A stretch of 40,300 nt of DNA from Thiobacillaceae bacterium (GTDB lineage Bacteria; Pseudomonadota; Gammaproteobacteria; Burkholderiales; Thiobacillaceae). A program made the position numbers and the translations under genes. Below, piece after piece: positions 12,744 through 23,091 of this stretch. The stretch spans positions 1-40,300 of the forward strand of contig JANWZL010000076.1 of the NCBI GenBank assembly GCA_025054655.1. The letters run 5' to 3'. The notes below the pieces were generated by a model. It did no database searches and was not told the origin of the DNA. It saw nothing but the letters and a program-made list of their open reading frames with translations. Position 1 is the first letter of the stretch. Each line of letters opens with the position of its first letter.

Positions 12744-13178
12744 TCAGGGCTTGAGATAGACGAAACCCTCCCTGGCCTGCAGGCGTCCGATCTCCGCCAC
12801 GCCCGAGGGCACGATGCTTGCGTCCATGATCACGGCGGAGTCGTCCAGCTTGCGCCCCTGCAGGGTGTTGCGGCAGACGCGGAATTCCACGCCCTGGTCC
12901 TTCAGGCCCACCACCTGCGGCTGGTAGGGCTCGCCCTTGTCGTCCTTGGCGCCGTTGAGCAGGAAGTCTATGCCCTTGCCATGGGTGACCACCACGATCT
13001 TGGTGCCGGGGCTGGCGGTGATGTGGTTTTGGATGTTGCGCAGGGCGGTGCGCGCCACGGCCGAGTCGTTGATGTGATAGACCACCTTCTCCTGTTTCGG
13101 GTCGGCGGCGGGGCCGGCGGTGGCGCAGCCGGTGATGCCGAGGATCAGGGCGCTGGCCATGAGTGCTTGACGGATCAT
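12744..13178 (-). CDS. DsrE-like family putative lipoprotein
   Basis: Signal peptide with lipobox ITG-C (MIRQALMASALILGITGCATAG); DsrE-like core KVVYHINDS...IVVVTHGKGIDFLL...GVEFRVCRNTLQ...GVAEIGRLQAREGFVYLKP. Confidence 0.85.
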   Translation of the reverse strand: MIRQALMASALILGITGCATAGPAADPKQEKVVYHINDSAVARTALRNIQNHITASPGTKIVVVTHGKGIDFLLNGAKDDKGEPYQPQVVGLKDQGVEFRVCRNTLQGRKLDDSAVIMDASIVPSGVAEIGRLQAREGFVYLKP

Positions 13179-13241
13179 GTCTTTCCTCCTCCAAAGGCTT
13201 GCACGAAAGAATGGCCGTGGGCCAGGTGCGGCCCACGTCGG

Positions 13242-13271
13242 TATAGACGTGGTCGGTGGGCGTTTTATTCC
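13242..13271 (-). promoter_or_regulatory. Predicted ECF-type promoter of the DsrE-like lipoprotein gene
   Basis: - strand GGAATA (13271-13266) - N16 - CGTCTATA (13249-13242); spacing and hexamers identical to the divergent promoter. Confidence 0.8.
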
Positions 13272-13290
13272 ATTTACGCCCGGCGCCAGC

Positions 13291-13320
13291 GGAATATCCT
13301 GACCGTAATCGGCGTCTATA
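13291..13320 (+). promoter_or_regulatory. Predicted ECF-type promoter of the ECF sigma / DsrE-anti-sigma operon
   Basis: GGAATA (13291-13296) - N16 - CGTCTATA (13313-13320), 20 nt before the ATG at 13340, with GGAGGAGG-like SD between. Confidence 0.8.
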
Positions 13321-13339
13321 CGAGCGAGAGGAGGAGGAT

Positions 13340-13888
13340 ATGCGACTGCCCTGGTTGCGGCTGTGGGATGCCTCCCTGCAGCGCGAGCTGGCGGCCCTGC
13401 GCCCGCGGCTCTACCGCCTGGCCTATGCCTGGTGTCACGATCCTCACCTGGCCGACGACCTGGCCCAGGAGGCGCTCACCCGCGCCCTGGCGCACGGCGA
13501 CCAGCTCAAGGATGCTGGCCGGCTGTCGGCCTGGCTGTTCGCCATCCTCAACAACTGCTGGCGCGACCATCTGCGTGCGCGCCGCGACTGCTGCGATGTG
13601 GACACGCTCGACGAGCTGATCGACGAGGCCCAGCCCGGACCGGAGGGCGCGTACGCGTCGCGCCAGGCCGCCGACCGCGTGCGCGCGGCGATCGGCAGCC
13701 TGCCGCTCGCGCAGCGGCAGGTGCTCACCCTGGTGGACCTCGAGGGGTTGAGCTATGCCGAGACGGCAGGCGTGCTCGGGGTCCCGGTCGGCACGGTGAT
13801 GAGCCGGCTGGCGCGTGCGCGCGAAAGCCTGCGCGAGCGCCTGCTACGCCCGCAGGCGCAAGGTGTAGCGCTACGGAGGGTCAAATGA
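13340..13888 (+). CDS. ECF RNA polymerase sigma factor (sigma70 region 2 and 4)
   Basis: LYRLAYAWCHDPHLADDLAQEALTRAL (region 2) and QRQVLTLVDLEGLSYAETAGVLGVPVGTVMSRLARARESLRERL (region 4). Confidence 0.95.
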   Translation: MRLPWLRLWDASLQRELAALRPRLYRLAYAWCHDPHLADDLAQEALTRALAHGDQLKDAGRLSAWLFAILNNCWRDHLRARRDCCDVDTLDELIDEAQPGPEGAYASRQAADRVRAAIGSLPLAQRQVLTLVDLEGLSYAETAGVLGVPVGTVMSRLARARESLRERLLRPQAQGVALRRVK

Positions 13889-14604
13889 ACGCGCCTTATT
13901 CCCGTGAACACCTTGGCGCCTTCGTCGATGGCGAGCTCGACGCTGGCGAGCGCGAGCGGCTGCTGGCCCGCCTGCAGCAGGACCCCGCCGTGCGGGCCGA
14001 GGTGTGCGAGCTGCTGGCCGTGAAGGCGATGGTGAAGGCCTGCTATCAGGACCTGGCCAGCCCGCGTGCGCCTACCCACGCAGCCCGCCGCGGAAGGGGA
14101 TGGGCGCAGGCCCTGGCCGCCGGGGTGTTGTTCGCCGGTGGGCTGGGTCTGGGTTGGCTGATGAACGAGGGCCAGCACCGCCCACCTCCCTCCCTGCAGG
14201 TGGACGGTCTGCCGGCGGGCTTCCAGGCGGTGGCGGCGACCCCCCGGCCCGACGTGCGCAGCCTCATCCTGCACGTGGACAGCGGCGAGCGCGCTGTGCT
14301 GGAACGCGCCCTGGCCCTGGCCGAGTCGCTGCTCGCGCAGGATGGGCGGCGACGGGTGGAGGTCGTCGTGCACAGCGCAGGCCTCGACCTGTTGCGCGCC
14401 GACGTCACCCCTTTCCGCGCGCGTATCGAGCGGCTGGCTCGCATGCACGCCAACCTGAGCTTCGTCGCCTGCGGCAACACCATCGCGCGGCTGACACGCG
14501 AGGGCAAACGGGTCGTCCTGCTGCCGCAGGCGCGCAAGGTCGATTCCGCCGTGGGCAACATCGTGCAGCGGTTGCGGCAGGGCTGGGTGTACATCAAGGT
14601 CTGA
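13885..14604 (+). CDS. Membrane anti-sigma factor with C-terminal DsrE-like domain
   Basis: ATGA overlap with sigma gene; N-term LGAFVDGELDAGERERLLARLQQDPAVRAEV anti-sigma-like; TM WAQALAAGVLFAGGLGLGWLM; C-term RSLILHVDSGE...VEVVVHSAGLDLL...LSFVACGNTIARL...GNIVQRLRQGWVYIKV aligns by eye with the DsrE-like protein at 12744-13178. Confidence 0.85.
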   Translation: MNAPYSREHLGAFVDGELDAGERERLLARLQQDPAVRAEVCELLAVKAMVKACYQDLASPRAPTHAARRGRGWAQALAAGVLFAGGLGLGWLMNEGQHRPPPSLQVDGLPAGFQAVAATPRPDVRSLILHVDSGERAVLERALALAESLLAQDGRRRVEVVVHSAGLDLLRADVTPFRARIERLARMHANLSFVACGNTIARLTREGKRVVLLPQARKVDSAVGNIVQRLRQGWVYIKV

Positions 14605-14639
14605 TCTTCTGCAGCCGAGCCGCGCGGGCGGGCAATTGA

Positions 14640-14778
14640 GCACCTCGAAAAACCTGCTGCGCGGTCGGATGGCGGCGTTGCGCGGTGCTCGGATGCTCGC
14701 CTATCTGCTTGATATGTCTTGCATCCTGCGCTCCGTGCGCCTTGCCCTCCAACCGCTCGCGACGGTTTATCGAGGTGC
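14640..14778. mobile_element. MITE-like element / long imperfect palindrome with 15-bp terminal inverted repeats
   Basis: GCACCTCGAAAAACC (14640-14654) versus GGTTTATCGAGGTGC (14764-14778): inverted, one mismatch; 139 bp, no coding content. Confidence 0.65.
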
Positions 14779-14838
14779 CCAATTTCCATCGACTGCCGGT
14801 ATATTGGCTGCGTGTGCACAAGCGCAGAGGGGTGGACG

Positions 14839-17395: not shown

Positions 17396-17422
17396 CCCGG
17401 ATTTCACTTCGCTGCATCCGGG
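17396..17422. repeat. REP-like palindrome CCCGGATTTCACTTCGCTGCATCCGGG at the nadB 3' end
   Basis: Inverted arms CCCGGAT / ATCCGGG; second related half-copy about 17358-17381 (gcagcgcaatccggggctac). Confidence 0.7.
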
Positions 17423-19008
17423 TCCTGGCCCTGTGCGGCCGCGGCAGTCGGTGTGAGGACGGTATCGCGCGCCTCGGCCAGCAGCCCGGGGTAGTCGCGC
17501 GAGTAGTGCAGCCCGCGGCTTTCGTGCCGGGCCTGGGCGCAGCGCACGATGAGGTCGGCGGTGAGGACCAGGTTCCGCAGCTCCAGCAGGTCGTTGCTGA
17601 CGCGGAAGTGGCTGTAGTACTCGTGGATCTCCTCGCTGAGCAGTCGGATGCGGTTGGCGGCGCGCTCCAGTCGTTTGTTGGTGCGCACGATGCCGACGTA
17701 GTCCCACATGAAACGGCGCAGCTCGTGCCAATTGTGGGCGATGACGATCTCCTCGTCGGCATCGGTCACGCGGCTTTCGTCCCAGGCCGGCAGCCGCTGT
17801 TGCGGGGCCGGTTCGGACTGGGTGATGTGGGTGGCGGCGGCGCGCCCATAGACCAGGCACTCCAGCAGGGAGTTGCTGGCCAGCCGGTTGGCGCCGTGCA
17901 GCCCGGTGTGACTGACCTCGCCGATGGCGTAGAGGTGAGGCAGGTCGGTGCGGCCGTGTTCGTCCACCACCACGCCGCCGCAGGTGTAGTGCGCGGCGGG
18001 GGCCACCGGGATCCACTCGGTGGTGATGTCCATGCCCAGTGCCTTGCAACGCGCGTGGATGGTGGGGAAGCGGGCGATGATCTGTTTGGCCGGCAGGTGG
18101 GTGATGTCCAGATAGACGCAGTCCAGGCCGCGTTTCTTCATCTCGAAGTCGATGGCGCGGGCGACGATGTCGCGTGGGGCGAGTTCCGCCCGCTCGTCGT
18201 GCGCGGGCATGAAACGGGTGCCGTCGGGTAGCCTGAGTACCGCGCCCTCGCCACGCATGGCCTCGGTGATGAGGAAGCTCTTGGCCTTGGGGTGATGCAG
18301 ACAGGTGGGGTGGAACTGGATGAATTCCAGGTTGGCCACCCGGCAACCGGCGCGCCAGGCCATGGCGATGCCGTCGCCCGTGGAGGTGTCGGGGTTGGTG
18401 GTGTAGAGGAAGGCCTTACACGCACCGCCGGTGGCGAGCACGGTGTGGCCGGCGGCGATGGTCTCGACCCGGCCGCGGCGGGTGTCGAGCACATAGGCCC
18501 CCAGTACGCCGTCGCCGGCCAAACCCAGCTTGCGTGCGGTGATGAGGTCGATGGCGATGTGCCAGGGCAAAATCTGCACGTTGGGGCAGGCCGCGAGCCG
18601 CTTGAGCAGGGTGTCCTGCACCGCCGCGCCGGTGGCGTCGGCCACGTGGTAGATGCGCCGGTGGCTGTGGCCGCCCTCGCGCGTGAGGTGGTAGTCGCTG
18701 CCCTCGCGGTCGAACGGCACCCCCTGCCAGATGAGCCAGCCCACGGCCCGCGGCGCCTCGGCGATCACCCGGCGCACCGTGTCCTCGTGGCACAGTCCCG
18801 CCCCGGCCTGAAGCGTGTCGCGCACGTGCGCCTCGATGCTATCGTCGGCCTCGTGCACCGCGGCGATACCGCCCTGCGCCCAGTGGCTGGCGCTCTCCGT
18901 GGGCTCCTTCTTGGTGATCATCAGCACCTTGAGCCGTTCGGGCAGCGACAAGGCGAGCGTGGAGGCGGCCAGGCCCGAGCCGATGATGAGGACGTCGCAG
19001 CGCAGCAT
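17404..19008 (-). CDS. nadB: L-aspartate oxidase
   Basis: [123 protein letters not shown]. Confidence 0.97.
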
Positions 19009-19157: not shown

Positions 19158-19757
19158 ATGAGTGAACGGGATGCCGACCTGCTCCTGGTGGAACGGGTGC
19201 GACAGGGCGACAAGCGCGCCTTCGAGCTGCTGGTGGAGAAATACCGGCGCAAGATCGGGCGGCTGCTCGCACGCATGGTGCGCGACCCGGAGGAGGTCCA
19301 GGACATCGCCCAGGAGACCTTCATCAAGGCCTACCGGGCGCTGCCGCAGTTCCGCGGCGATGCGGCCTTTTACACCTGGCTGTATCGCATCGCGGTGAAC
19401 ACGGCGAAGAACTATATGACCGCGCGTAACCGTGAGATGTCCACGGTGAGCGAGGTGGCCGGCGAAGAGGAGGAGGGTGGCGAGGAGCGCTATGCGGCGC
19501 CCGACATCGACACCCCGGAAGGGCATCTGCTGTCCAAGCAGATCGCCTACGCGGTGAACGAAGCGGTCGAGGCCCTGCCGGAAGAGTTGCGCACGGCCAT
19601 CACCCTGCGCGAGATCGAAGGCATGAGTTATGAGGACATTGCGAATTTCATGGGGTGCCCGATCGGCACGGTACGCTCGCGCATCTTCCGCGCGCGCGAG
19701 GCCATCGCCGCCAAGCTGCGCCCCATCTTGGGCACATCCGAGGATCAGCGATGGTGA
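19158..19757 (+). CDS. rpoE: RNA polymerase sigma factor RpoE (AlgU)
   Basis: MSERDADLLLVERVRQGDKRAFELLVEKYRRKIGRLLARMVRDPEEVQDIAQETFIKAYRALPQFRGDAAFYTWLYRIAVNTAKN; followed by rseABC-mucD. Confidence 0.98.
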   Translation: MSERDADLLLVERVRQGDKRAFELLVEKYRRKIGRLLARMVRDPEEVQDIAQETFIKAYRALPQFRGDAAFYTWLYRIAVNTAKNYMTARNREMSTVSEVAGEEEEGGEERYAAPDIDTPEGHLLSKQIAYAVNEAVEALPEELRTAITLREIEGMSYEDIANFMGCPIGTVRSRIFRAREAIAAKLRPILGTSEDQRW

Positions 19758-20284
19758 CGACAGTGCATGAAGAACACGATCGACGGGCCGATGCGGAGCG
19801 GCTGTCTGCTCTGCTGGACGGGGAATTGGATGCGCACGAGACCAGCCTGTGCCTGCGCCGGCTGGGCCATGACGCCGCCCTGTCGCGGCAATGGGCGGAG
19901 TATTGTCTGATCCGTGACGCCCTACGCGGTGAGGCACTGGTCCAACCCGGCCTGTGCCGGCGGGTGCACGCCGCGCTGGCGCAGGAGCCCACCATCCTCG
20001 CACCCATGCGCCGCCGCAGCGAACGCCGGCGCTGGCTGCGCGGCGCCGGTCTGGTCGCAGCGGCCGCGGCGGTGGGGGGGCTGACCTGGATGCTGTGGAC
20101 GGCCGCACCCCAATCCGAGGCCATGTCGCCGCAGACCGAGAGCGCATCGGTCGAGACCATGACCGCGCATCACCCGCTGCAGCCCTATCTGGCCGCCCAT
20201 CAGGACTTCGCCCAAGGCGTGGCGGTGTACCCGCAAGTGAGGCTCACACGGGTCTCCTGGCCGGCAGCGGAGGGCGGCCGGTGA
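19751..20284 (+). CDS. rseA: Anti-sigmaE factor RseA (MucA)
   Basis: AERLSALLDGELDAHETSLCLRRLGHDAALSRQWAEYCLIRDALRG; single TM; position after rpoE. Confidence 0.93.
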   Translation: MVTTVHEEHDRRADAERLSALLDGELDAHETSLCLRRLGHDAALSRQWAEYCLIRDALRGEALVQPGLCRRVHAALAQEPTILAPMRRRSERRRWLRGAGLVAAAAAVGGLTWMLWTAAPQSEAMSPQTESASVETMTAHHPLQPYLAAHQDFAQGVAVYPQVRLTRVSWPAAEGGR

Positions 20285-21240
20285 GCGCGCCAGCGCTGCG
20301 ATCCGTCCTCGCCTTGGTCCTAGGCCTGACCTGTATCGCCGAGGGTGCGGCGAACGAGGCCCTGTCGGCGCAGGAGGCCGGCCAATGGCTGCAGCGGGTG
20401 GCCGACAGCGCACGGCGGCTGACCTACGAGGGCAAGTTCGTCTTCCAGCAGGGCGATGTCCTGCAGACGATGTACGTCGTCAGCCGTGCGAGCGGCGGCC
20501 AGAAACACACCCAGCTCGTCACCCTGGATGGCACGCCGCGCGAGCTCCTCTGCCGCGAGGGCGAGACCCTGATCGTCACGCACGAGGGCGGTGCGCCGCG
20601 CGTGGAGCGGCGGCCGGGCAGCCGCCATTTCCCCGATCTGCTACCGGCCAATGCCGCAGTGCTGGTCAACTGGTACAGCGTACGCTGGGGGGAGAACGAC
20701 CGCGTGGCCGGGCTCGACTGCCGCTGGCTGGAGCTGGCGCCGCGCGATGTCTATCGCTGGCGCCACGAGCTGTGTGTGGAGAAAGACAGCCTGCTGCCGC
20801 TCAAGGCCGTGATGGTGAACGAGGCGGGCCGGCCGCTGCAGCAGTACGCCTTCACCGAGGTGACCATAGGCACCGGCGTGCGCCCGGCCGCCCCGCAGCG
20901 CAGTCTGCCTGCCGTGGAACCGCCGCCGTTGCGGGCGAGCACCGCCGACATGCTCACCCTGCGGCAGCTGCCTCCCGGCTACACACGCATCGCCGCGGTC
21001 AAGCGGCGCCTGCCCAACCGCCCGCAGGAGGTCGAGCATTGGCTTTACAGCGACGGGCTGACCTACATCTCGCTGTTCATCGAGCCTGCCACACGGCCGC
21101 TGGAGCCGTTCAAGGGGGCGAGCCCGCGCGGCATGCTCAACCTGCTCAGCCGCAGGGTGGGTAACTGGCAGGTCACCGTACTGGGCGATGCGCCCTGGCC
21201 GGCGGTGGAGGCGATCGCCCATGCCGTGGCGGAGCGCTAA
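20281..21240 (+). CDS. rseB: Sigma-E factor regulatory protein RseB (MucB)
   Basis: GTG start overlapping rseA stop; AQEAGQWLQRVADSARRLTYEGKFVFQQGDVLQTMYVVSR..., YSDGLTYISLFIEP. Confidence 0.93.
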   Translation: MSAPALRSVLALVLGLTCIAEGAANEALSAQEAGQWLQRVADSARRLTYEGKFVFQQGDVLQTMYVVSRASGGQKHTQLVTLDGTPRELLCREGETLIVTHEGGAPRVERRPGSRHFPDLLPANAAVLVNWYSVRWGENDRVAGLDCRWLELAPRDVYRWRHELCVEKDSLLPLKAVMVNEAGRPLQQYAFTEVTIGTGVRPAAPQRSLPAVEPPPLRASTADMLTLRQLPPGYTRIAAVKRRLPNRPQEVEHWLYSDGLTYISLFIEPATRPLEPFKGASPRGMLNLLSRRVGNWQVTVLGDAPWPAVEAIAHAVAER

Positions 21241-21276
21241 AGGGGTGGTGATCCCGCCTGGATCGGGTGACCACCC

Positions 21277-21732
21277 ATGATCGAGACCACTGCCCGCGTC
21301 GTCCGCTTGGAAGGGAACACCGCCTGGGTGCGGGTGGATTCACCCGCTGGCTGCGGCGCTTGCGGCGGCAGGGGCTGCGGCACCGCGTTGTTCGCCCGCC
21401 TGTTCGACCCGCGGGAACCCGAGTACCCCGTGGCCAATCCCATAGACGCCCGGCCGGGTGACACGGTGGTGGTGGGAGTGGAGGACGGCGAGCTGCTCAA
21501 GGCGGCCCTGGCCGGTTATGTGCTACCCCTCGGCCTGCTCGTGTTGGGCGCCCTGCTCGGCTCGGCGCTGGGTGAGGCGGCGGCCGCGCTGGGTGCGGCC
21601 CTGGGGCTAGTGCTTGCCTGGTGGCTGTTGCGCTTGCGGCCGTTTGCCCGCGCGCCGGTGATCCTGCGCCAGCTGCCCCCGAAACCGGCGGGCACGCACT
21701 GTCTTTCTGGCAATCGACTGGAAGAGAGGTGA
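21277..21732 (+). CDS. rseC: SoxR-reducing/RseC family protein
   Basis: MIETTARVVRLEGNTAWVRVDSPAGCGACGGRGCGTALFARLF Cys motif followed by two TM helices. Confidence 0.92.
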   Translation: MIETTARVVRLEGNTAWVRVDSPAGCGACGGRGCGTALFARLFDPREPEYPVANPIDARPGDTVVVGVEDGELLKAALAGYVLPLGLLVLGALLGSALGEAAAALGAALGLVLAWWLLRLRPFARAPVILRQLPPKPAGTHCLSGNRLEER

Positions 21733-21735
21733 TCC

Positions 21736-23091
21736 ATGAGGTTTGGCTTGATCGGTCTAATCCTAACGTTCTTCGCTGCGGTCGCCACGGCCGCCCAACT
21801 GCCCGACTTCACCGAGCTGGTGGAGCGGCAGGCGCCGGCGGTGGTCAACATCACCACGGTGCAGGACGCCCGACGCCAGCGGCGCGGGCGCATGCCACAG
21901 CCGGACGAGCTGTTCGAATTCTTCCGCCGCTTCGCCCCGCCCGAGGGGGGGGAGCGCTTCACCCCGCCGCGGCGCGGACAGGGCTCGGGTTTCATCATCA
22001 GCGACGACGGCTACATCCTCACCAACACCCACGTGGTGGACGAGGCCGACGAGGTCATCGTGCGGCTGCACGACCGGCGCGAATTCCGCGCCAAGGTGGT
22101 GGGCAAGGACGAGCGTACCGATGTCGCCCTGATCAAGATCGAGGCGCGCGGGCTGCCGCGGGTGACCATCGGCGACCCCGAGCGGCTGAAGGTGGGCGAG
22201 TGGGTGCTGGCGATCGGCGCGCCCTTTGGCTTCGAGAACTCGGTCACCGCCGGCATCGTCTCGGCCAAGGGCAGGAGCCTGCCGTCTGAGAACTACGTGC
22301 CCTTCATCCAGACCGACGTGGCGGTCAATCCGGGCAACTCCGGCGGGCCCTTGTTCAACATGCGCGGCGAGGTGGTGGGCATCAACTCGCAGATCATCTC
22401 GCGCTCCGGCGGCTACATGGGCCTGTCCTTCGCCATCCCGATCGACGTGGCCATGGACGTGGCCGAGCAGTTGAAGACCACCGGCCGCGTGGCGCGCGGG
22501 CGCATCGGCGTCATGATCCAGGAGGTCACCAACGACCTGGCCGAATCCTTCGGGCTGGCCAAGCCGCAGGGGGCGCTGGTGTCGGAGGTGGAGAAGGGCA
22601 GCCCGGCAGAGCGTGCCGGCGTGCAGGTGTCCGACATCATCCTTAGGTACAACGGCCGGCCGGTGGAGCGCTCCATCGACCTGCCGCGCATGGTCGGCGC
22701 CACCCGGCCGGGGACCAAGGCCACGCTCACCGTCTGGCGCAAGGGCCGGACCCTGGACCTCACCGTCACCGTGGGTGAGATGCCGGTCGAAAAGGTCGCC
22801 GGCGCCCGCCCCGAGGCCCAACCCGATCGCGCCGGGCTGATCACCAGCGACCTCACGCCGGAACAGCGGCGCCAGCTCAACATCCAGTCCGGCGTGCTGG
22901 TCGAGGACGTCACCGGTGCGGCCGCCCGCGCTGGCGTGCGGCCGGGAGACGTCATCCTGGCAGTGAACAACCGCGAGGTCTACAGCAGCGAGGAACTGAG
23001 CAAGCTGATCAACGAGACCGGCCGCAAGAGCGTGGCATTGCTCGTCAAGCGGGGCGAGAGCTCCATCTACATCCCGCTGCGGCTGGATTGA
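21736..23091 (+). CDS. mucD: Periplasmic serine protease MucD (DegP/Do family), two PDZ domains
   Basis: GSGFIISDDGYILTNTHVV, TDVALIKI, QTDVAVNPGNSGGPLFNMRGEVVGIN, PDZ repeats. Confidence 0.95.
   Translation: MRFGLIGLILTFFAAVATAAQLPDFTELVERQAPAVVNITTVQDARRQRRGRMPQPDELFEFFRRFAPPEGGERFTPPRRGQGSGFIISDDGYILTNTHVVDEADEVIVRLHDRREFRAKVVGKDERTDVALIKIEARGLPRVTIGDPERLKVGEWVLAIGAPFGFENSVTAGIVSAKGRSLPSENYVPFIQTDVAVNPGNSGGPLFNMRGEVVGINSQIISRSGGYMGLSFAIPIDVAMDVAEQLKTTGRVARGRIGVMIQEVTNDLAESFGLAKPQGALVSEVEKGSPAERAGVQVSDIILRYNGRPVERSIDLPRMVGATRPGTKATLTVWRKGRTLDLTVTVGEMPVEKVAGARPEAQPDRAGLITSDLTPEQRRQLNIQSGVLVEDVTGAAARAGVRPGDVILAVNNREVYSSEELSKLINETGRKSVALLVKRGESSIYIPLRLD

Follow-up and report, generated by a model that had tools for sequence, protein, structure and literature searches.

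Which signal is read by a sigma factor whose anti-sigma partner carries a DsrE-like domain, and which genes answer to it? The question is raised by positions 12744-14604 of the window, the whole 40,300-nucleotide stretch of DNA analysed here, where an ECF sigma gene is overlapped by the membrane anti-sigma gene behind it and a gene for a DsrE lipoprotein lies divergent. Taken together, the present data suggest that this module is probably a three-gene switch by which sulfur-oxidising bacteria sense sulfur compounds outside the cytoplasm.

Gene content of the locus

The sigma gene (13340..13888, + strand) encodes a protein of 182 aa and is preceded by a ribosome-binding site, GGAGGAGG, at 13330..13337 (+). 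Its product matches Pfam Sigma70_r2 (2.5e-14) and Sigma70_r4_2 (8e-18), in agreement with the ECF identity given to it in a preliminary description of this DNA; with sigma2 and sigma4 as its only domains and sigma3 absent, it belongs to the ECF (group IV) sigma factors. An upstream GTG start at 13256 was rejected because it is located before the promoter. The anti-sigma gene (13885..14604, +; 239 aa, assigned from profiles and an AlphaFold model) has a start codon that overlaps the sigma stop codon (ATGA), and the divergent gene (12744..13178, - strand) encodes a DsrE-family lipoprotein of 144 aa, a predicted target of the sigma factor. All three genes had been placed in the preliminary description, and each was confirmed where it had been placed. 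Neighbouring genes were taken from codon-position gene calls; the raw open reading frames of GC-rich DNA are full of shadow frames.

Two further elements lie in the window. Just downstream of the anti-sigma gene is a MITE-like element of about 155 bp (14631-14787) with 24-bp inverted ends that are 88% complementary. The assembly contains 24 further full or partial matches to it, of which seven have 90-97% identity. Beside nadB (17404-19008), at 19158-23091, stands another ECF operon of ordinary appearance, which apparently comprises rpoE, rseA-like, mucB/rseB-like and rseC-like genes and a gene for a mucD-like protease, all named by eye.

The anti-sigma factor and its DsrE partner

The preliminary description held that the anti-sigma factor ends in a DsrE-like domain, and proposed a search against Pfam DsrE (PF02635). 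That search recovered the divergent lipoprotein above the cut-off (E 1.2e-11) but not the anti-sigma factor, in which neither Pfam nor NCBIfam gave a DsrE match and Pfam returned a sub-threshold zf-HC2 hit only; the claim was therefore put to profile and fold tests. An HMM built solely from neighbouring DsrE proteins matched the window's anti-sigma factor at 2.5e-16 and, reciprocally, an HMM built solely from anti-sigma factors matched neighbouring DsrE proteins at up to 8.6e-16, so that family-specific profiles are positive. In the AlphaFold model of the anti-sigma factor (pLDDT 88.9), residues 124-239 (14254..14601, +) align with MTH1491 at Z 16.5, with ST0148 at Z 15.7, with YchN at Z 12.8, with DsrE (2hy5_A) at Z 11.8 and with TusD at Z 11.3. 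Because of the reciprocal profile matches and the fold match at Z 16.5, the C-terminal domain of the anti-sigma factor is a true DsrE homologue, and this part of the preliminary description is borne out.

The remainder of the protein resembles known membrane anti-sigma factors. A cytoplasmic anti-sigma domain of the RslA/MucA type (residues ~1-57; 13885..14055, +) is assigned from the fold match and D15, residues 2-61 aligning with RslA at Z 6.6 and the helical domain also resembling MucA at Z 5.3. The Hx3Cx2C motif of zinc-binding anti-sigma factors (ZAS) is absent from the window's anti-sigma sequence, and Cys41 lies outside the set of residues conserved in 90% of homologues. The helical domain of sigma-binding type and the co-encoded sigma factor, whose gene directly precedes the anti-sigma gene in 76/76 loci, are those of class I (ASDI) proteins. 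A single transmembrane helix (residues 71-97; 14095..14175, +) is predicted from the AF2 helix, hydropathy and charge bias in an N-in/C-out orientation; charge is more positive on the N side of this helix in 70/76 homologues, and the DsrE-like putative sensor domain is therefore placed in the periplasm. C196, H130, D15 and W234 are unchanged in all 76 homologues. C196 (codon 14470..14472, +) is the sole invariant cysteine of the anti-sigma factors, no second conserved cysteine being found in the periplasmic domain across the 76, and it follows the third strand, as does the conserved cysteine of DsrE/DsrF in PF02635; it would be the equivalent of DsrE Cys78.

The divergent protein is likewise of DsrE fold, its AF2 model (pLDDT 89.7) aligning with MTH1491 at Z 20.0 and with DsrF (2hy5_B) at Z 13.7, so that the structure predictions proposed for both DsrE-like domains agree. 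One cysteine is invariant in the DsrE partners (alignment A3, 22 sequences) and aligns with the cysteine of MTH1491 and ST0148; in the window it is Cys102, in the context VCRNTL (codon 12873..12875, -). A lipobox, ITGC, with lipid-anchored Cys18 (13125..13136, -) makes the window's protein a lipoprotein, as had been claimed. However, only the window's genus (L034-L036) and one outlier (L072) have this lipobox; DsrE partners elsewhere bear a plain secretion signal and are usually soluble secreted proteins. A gene for a Porin_O_P-like outer-membrane protein often follows the DsrE gene (L121, L038, L050, L052 and others). Porins of the Porin_O_P type serve in anion uptake, and this protein is possibly an uptake route for a sulfur anion.

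The pairing of two DsrE proteins allows a reading in which the DsrE domain of the anti-sigma factor binds no sulfur itself and instead assembles with the secreted DsrE into mixed oligomers, anti-sigma activity then being set by how much of the secreted protein is present or how much sulfur it carries, in a feedback like that of RseB on RseA; given the paired promoters described below, the circuit would then be a homeostatic loop on the DsrE carrier. The sensor domain and the partner are homologous and each has an invariant cysteine, the PDB structures of DsrE (2hy5) and TusD (2d1p) are hetero-oligomers, and a DsrE gene is found within ~4 kb of the anti-sigma gene in 56/76 loci. However, 20/76 loci have no DsrE gene nearby, although one elsewhere in the genome is possible, and this reading is considered rather unlikely. 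The fold, the topology and the invariant cysteine of the DsrE domain suggest that it may sense a sulfur species directly.

Distribution, promoter and connection to sox genes

The genome search proposed in the preliminary description, for a sigma factor joined to a DsrE-bearing anti-sigma factor, found relatives of the anti-sigma factor in 33/61 near genomes and full-length anti-sigma factors in 67/369 genomes drawn evenly from the class; the arrangement is therefore not due to chance. Among the carriers that bear a name are Thiobacillus thioparus (with the culturable strain DSM 505, L055), Parasulfuritortus cantonensis and strains of Thioalkalivibrio, joined by numerous MAGs listed under Thiobacillus, Sulfuritalea, Hydrogenophilus or Ectothiorhodospiraceae. 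A phylum sample, whose share outside the class is not shown, gave 3 module genomes, all of the window's own order. Several genomes hold 2-4 copies of the module, which counts against a firm assignment of sox control to one copy and suggests that several related signals are read. At least two sigma/DsrE-anti-sigma pairs occur in each of G140, G192, G265, G170 and G287, in tandem on contigs G170:C22 and G287:C26.

A shared promoter motif connects the module with its likely targets. The motif GGAATA-N14/16-CGTC(T/C) was found upstream in 59/76 loci, where shuffled sequence leads one to expect 0.02, and points towards the sigma gene in 44 loci, in the divergent direction in 33 and both ways in 18; the 17/76 loci without the strict motif count against the favoured explanation. 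Each of the two divergent promoters in the window has this motif, one directed at the DsrE lipoprotein gene (GGAATAAAACGCCCACCGACCACGTCT; 13245..13271, -) and one at the sigma operon (GGAATATCCTGACCGTAATCGGCGTCT; 13291..13317, +). With N15/16 spacing, the strict motif has 2 copies in the whole 2.2 Mb assembly, both at the module, and the reversed-pattern control has 1. Conserved next to the sigma gene, this would be an ECF-type GGAA...CGTC promoter read by the module's own sigma factor. The proposal that the module controls itself and its DsrE gene is supported, because the conserved ECF-type promoter occurs twice between them, in opposite orientations, and has no other strict copy in the assembly.

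The sulfur context suspected in the preliminary description is upheld by several observations. Among the 369 class genomes, soxB is carried by 149 overall and by 66 of the 67 with the anti-sigma factor (Fisher p 8.7e-30, related genomes not being independent samples), and 41 of the 42 families with the module have genomes combining it with soxB. When ~6 kb of DNA to either side of soxB was scanned for the promoter, 60 module genomes yielded 28 strict copies and 40 genomes lacking the module yielded none; the reversed-pattern control matched once in each set. Directly before soxB or soxX stand 21 of these 28 promoters, in 17 genomes, where 0.03 would be expected at control density; by genome, this amounts to 17/60 with the module versus 0/40 without (p 6e-5). 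In loci L121 and L122 the sox genes are part of the operon itself, in the order sigma, anti-sigma, soxX, soxY, soxZ, soxA, soxB (families checked in L121, with L122 read as its close counterpart), and in L072 the divergent operon encodes DsrE, DsrE, SoxY, SoxZ, SoxA and SoxX, and genes for ATP sulfurylase and a rhodanese flank the locus on its opposite side. Because of the co-occurrence with soxB, the promoters at soxB and soxX and the operons joining sigma and anti-sigma genes to soxXYZAB, the module is an ECF system of sulfur oxidation whose putative sensor is a DsrE domain.

The preliminary description had called the module self-contained, which holds in the window's lineage only. When a stricter pattern was applied to 40 module genomes, more than 70 sites were recovered, against a handful in the reversed control, and the regulon elsewhere includes sox, sulfur-transport and thioredoxin-like genes, promoter sites preceding DsrE, Sulf_transp (YeeE-type), SoxX and Thioredox_DsbH genes. 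Control of sox by the module promoter is unsupported in the window's own genome, where no strict site was found in the soxB region and the sox operon is cut by a contig end; because that region is without the promoter, output in this lineage seems to go no further than the module and its DsrE gene. Directly downstream of the anti-sigma gene in L055, L059, L079 and L083 is a gene for a large secreted Thioredox_DsbH (DUF255) protein, and in L253 and L254 such a gene stands behind a module promoter elsewhere in the genome. In G192 a type II haloacid dehalogenase with a Tat-like signal (L244:164-946), encoded 20 bp behind a promoter, is a candidate for an unexpected regulon member.

Two further explanations can be weighed against these targets. 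The invariant cysteine might report periplasmic disulfide or oxidative stress, the sox link then reflecting the redox burden of sulfur oxidation and not the sensing of sulfur. Such a thiol-redox or envelope-stress sensor would fit the genes for thioredoxin-like proteins that belong to the regulon or adjoin it (TlpA-like in L060 and L071, Thioredox_DsbH in L253, and beside the module in L055 and L059), and the presence of just one invariant cysteine has been reckoned in its favour. It is nevertheless improbable, as the promoter stands at sox and sulfur-transport genes, a general stress sensor would not readily account for soxB in 66/67 module genomes and the periplasmic domain has no second conserved cysteine. 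Alternatively, the fold may be structural only, a degenerate DsrE-like scaffold for a protease or an unrelated ligand, such as an anion admitted by a co-regulated porin, as the Porin_O_P genes behind DsrE in many loci might allow. However, the invariance of C196 and H130 and the sox link speak against degeneration, and this last explanation is held to be very improbable.

Proposed mechanism and relation to known systems

The favoured model, in which a sigma factor and its anti-sigma factor form a transmembrane switch that responds to sulfur in sulfur-oxidising bacteria, is regarded as likely, though far from certain. ECF sigma factors are sequestered by class I anti-sigma factors, and DsrE proteins carry sulfur on cysteine; sulfur chemistry may be absent in some DsrE-fold proteins, which counts against the model. 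In this scheme the N-terminal domain of the anti-sigma factor would hold the ECF sigma factor at the membrane, while the periplasmic DsrE-like domain would read a sulfur species (sulfane sulfur, thiosulfate or tetrathionate) through Cys196, which that species may reach directly or be handed to by the secreted DsrE partner. Once loaded, the domain would change its conformation or assembly and the sigma factor would be released, either by the conformational change or by proteolysis; the freed sigma factor would then drive transcription of the operon that encodes it and of the divergent DsrE gene; in many relatives its targets would also include sox genes, a gene for sulfur transport and genes for thioredoxin-like proteins. 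The gene architecture, the DsrE homology, the invariant cysteine, the paired promoters and the linkage to sox are observed; sigma binding, use of this promoter by this sigma factor, sulfur as the signal, the cysteine chemistry and the manner of release are all inferred. A precedent for sulfur loading of a DsrE-like domain is provided by archaeal DsrE3A, which reacts with tetrathionate to form Cys-S-thiosulfonate and passes thiosulfate on (PMC4175335). A more specific version, a sulfur relay in which the secreted periplasmic DsrE docks on or loads its anti-sigma homologue, so that filling of the carrier leads to sigma release and sox transcription, is possible but on the doubtful side.

Control of sulfur genes by ECF sigma factors is already known. 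RpoE1 and RpoE4 (ECF26) of S. meliloti, which control sulfur genes in response to sulfite, likewise join a sigma and an anti-sigma factor over sulfur oxidation genes and are autoregulated; however, they are alphaproteobacterial, their target is the sulfite dehydrogenase SorT and their anti-sigma factors are assigned to COG5662 and are not reported to have a DsrE domain (PMC3511301). In Arcobacter butzleri, mutants in the ECF factors sigma2 and sigma7 show raised or lowered sox expression, an effect that may be indirect; these factors belong to a member of the Campylobacterota and have broad regulons, and no DsrE anti-sigma factor has been reported for them (PMC3445524). The ArsR-type repressors SoxR and sHdrR of Hyphomicrobium provide sox control by sulfane sulfur through conserved cysteine, but they are cytoplasmic DNA-binding proteins with two cysteines (PMC12423496, PMC10451225), whereas the putative sensor of the module faces the periplasm, and their sensing needs sulfur import by SoxT (PMC11582611). 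The sulfurtransferases DsrE, DsrF and TusD (PF02635) share fold, sequence homology and conserved cysteine with the sensor domain and its partner, yet those characterised are cytoplasmic sulfur carriers and not part of a membrane anti-sigma factor. The RseA-RseB/sigmaE and MucA-MucB/AlgU systems, conversely, have a single-pass anti-sigma factor whose cytoplasmic sigma-binding domain falls in the same class and whose sensing part lies in the periplasm, but that part is unrelated to DsrE. No description of a DsrE-bearing anti-sigma factor was found in the literature searched, which for the most part excludes subscription papers, and it is this domain on a membrane anti-sigma factor that appears to be new.

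The sensing of extracytoplasmic sulfur by sulfur oxidisers is described as poorly understood (PMC11582611), and the sensors characterised in that field are repressors of the cytoplasm. The module offers a periplasm-facing candidate sulfur sensor with one obvious target residue and a defined promoter, and might serve as a genetic part in thiosulfate biosensors. It is widespread among the Sox-bearing gammaproteobacterial families (in the GTDB sense, which includes the Thiobacillaceae), where it would provide a sigma-based route to the control of sox genes whose regulation is little known.
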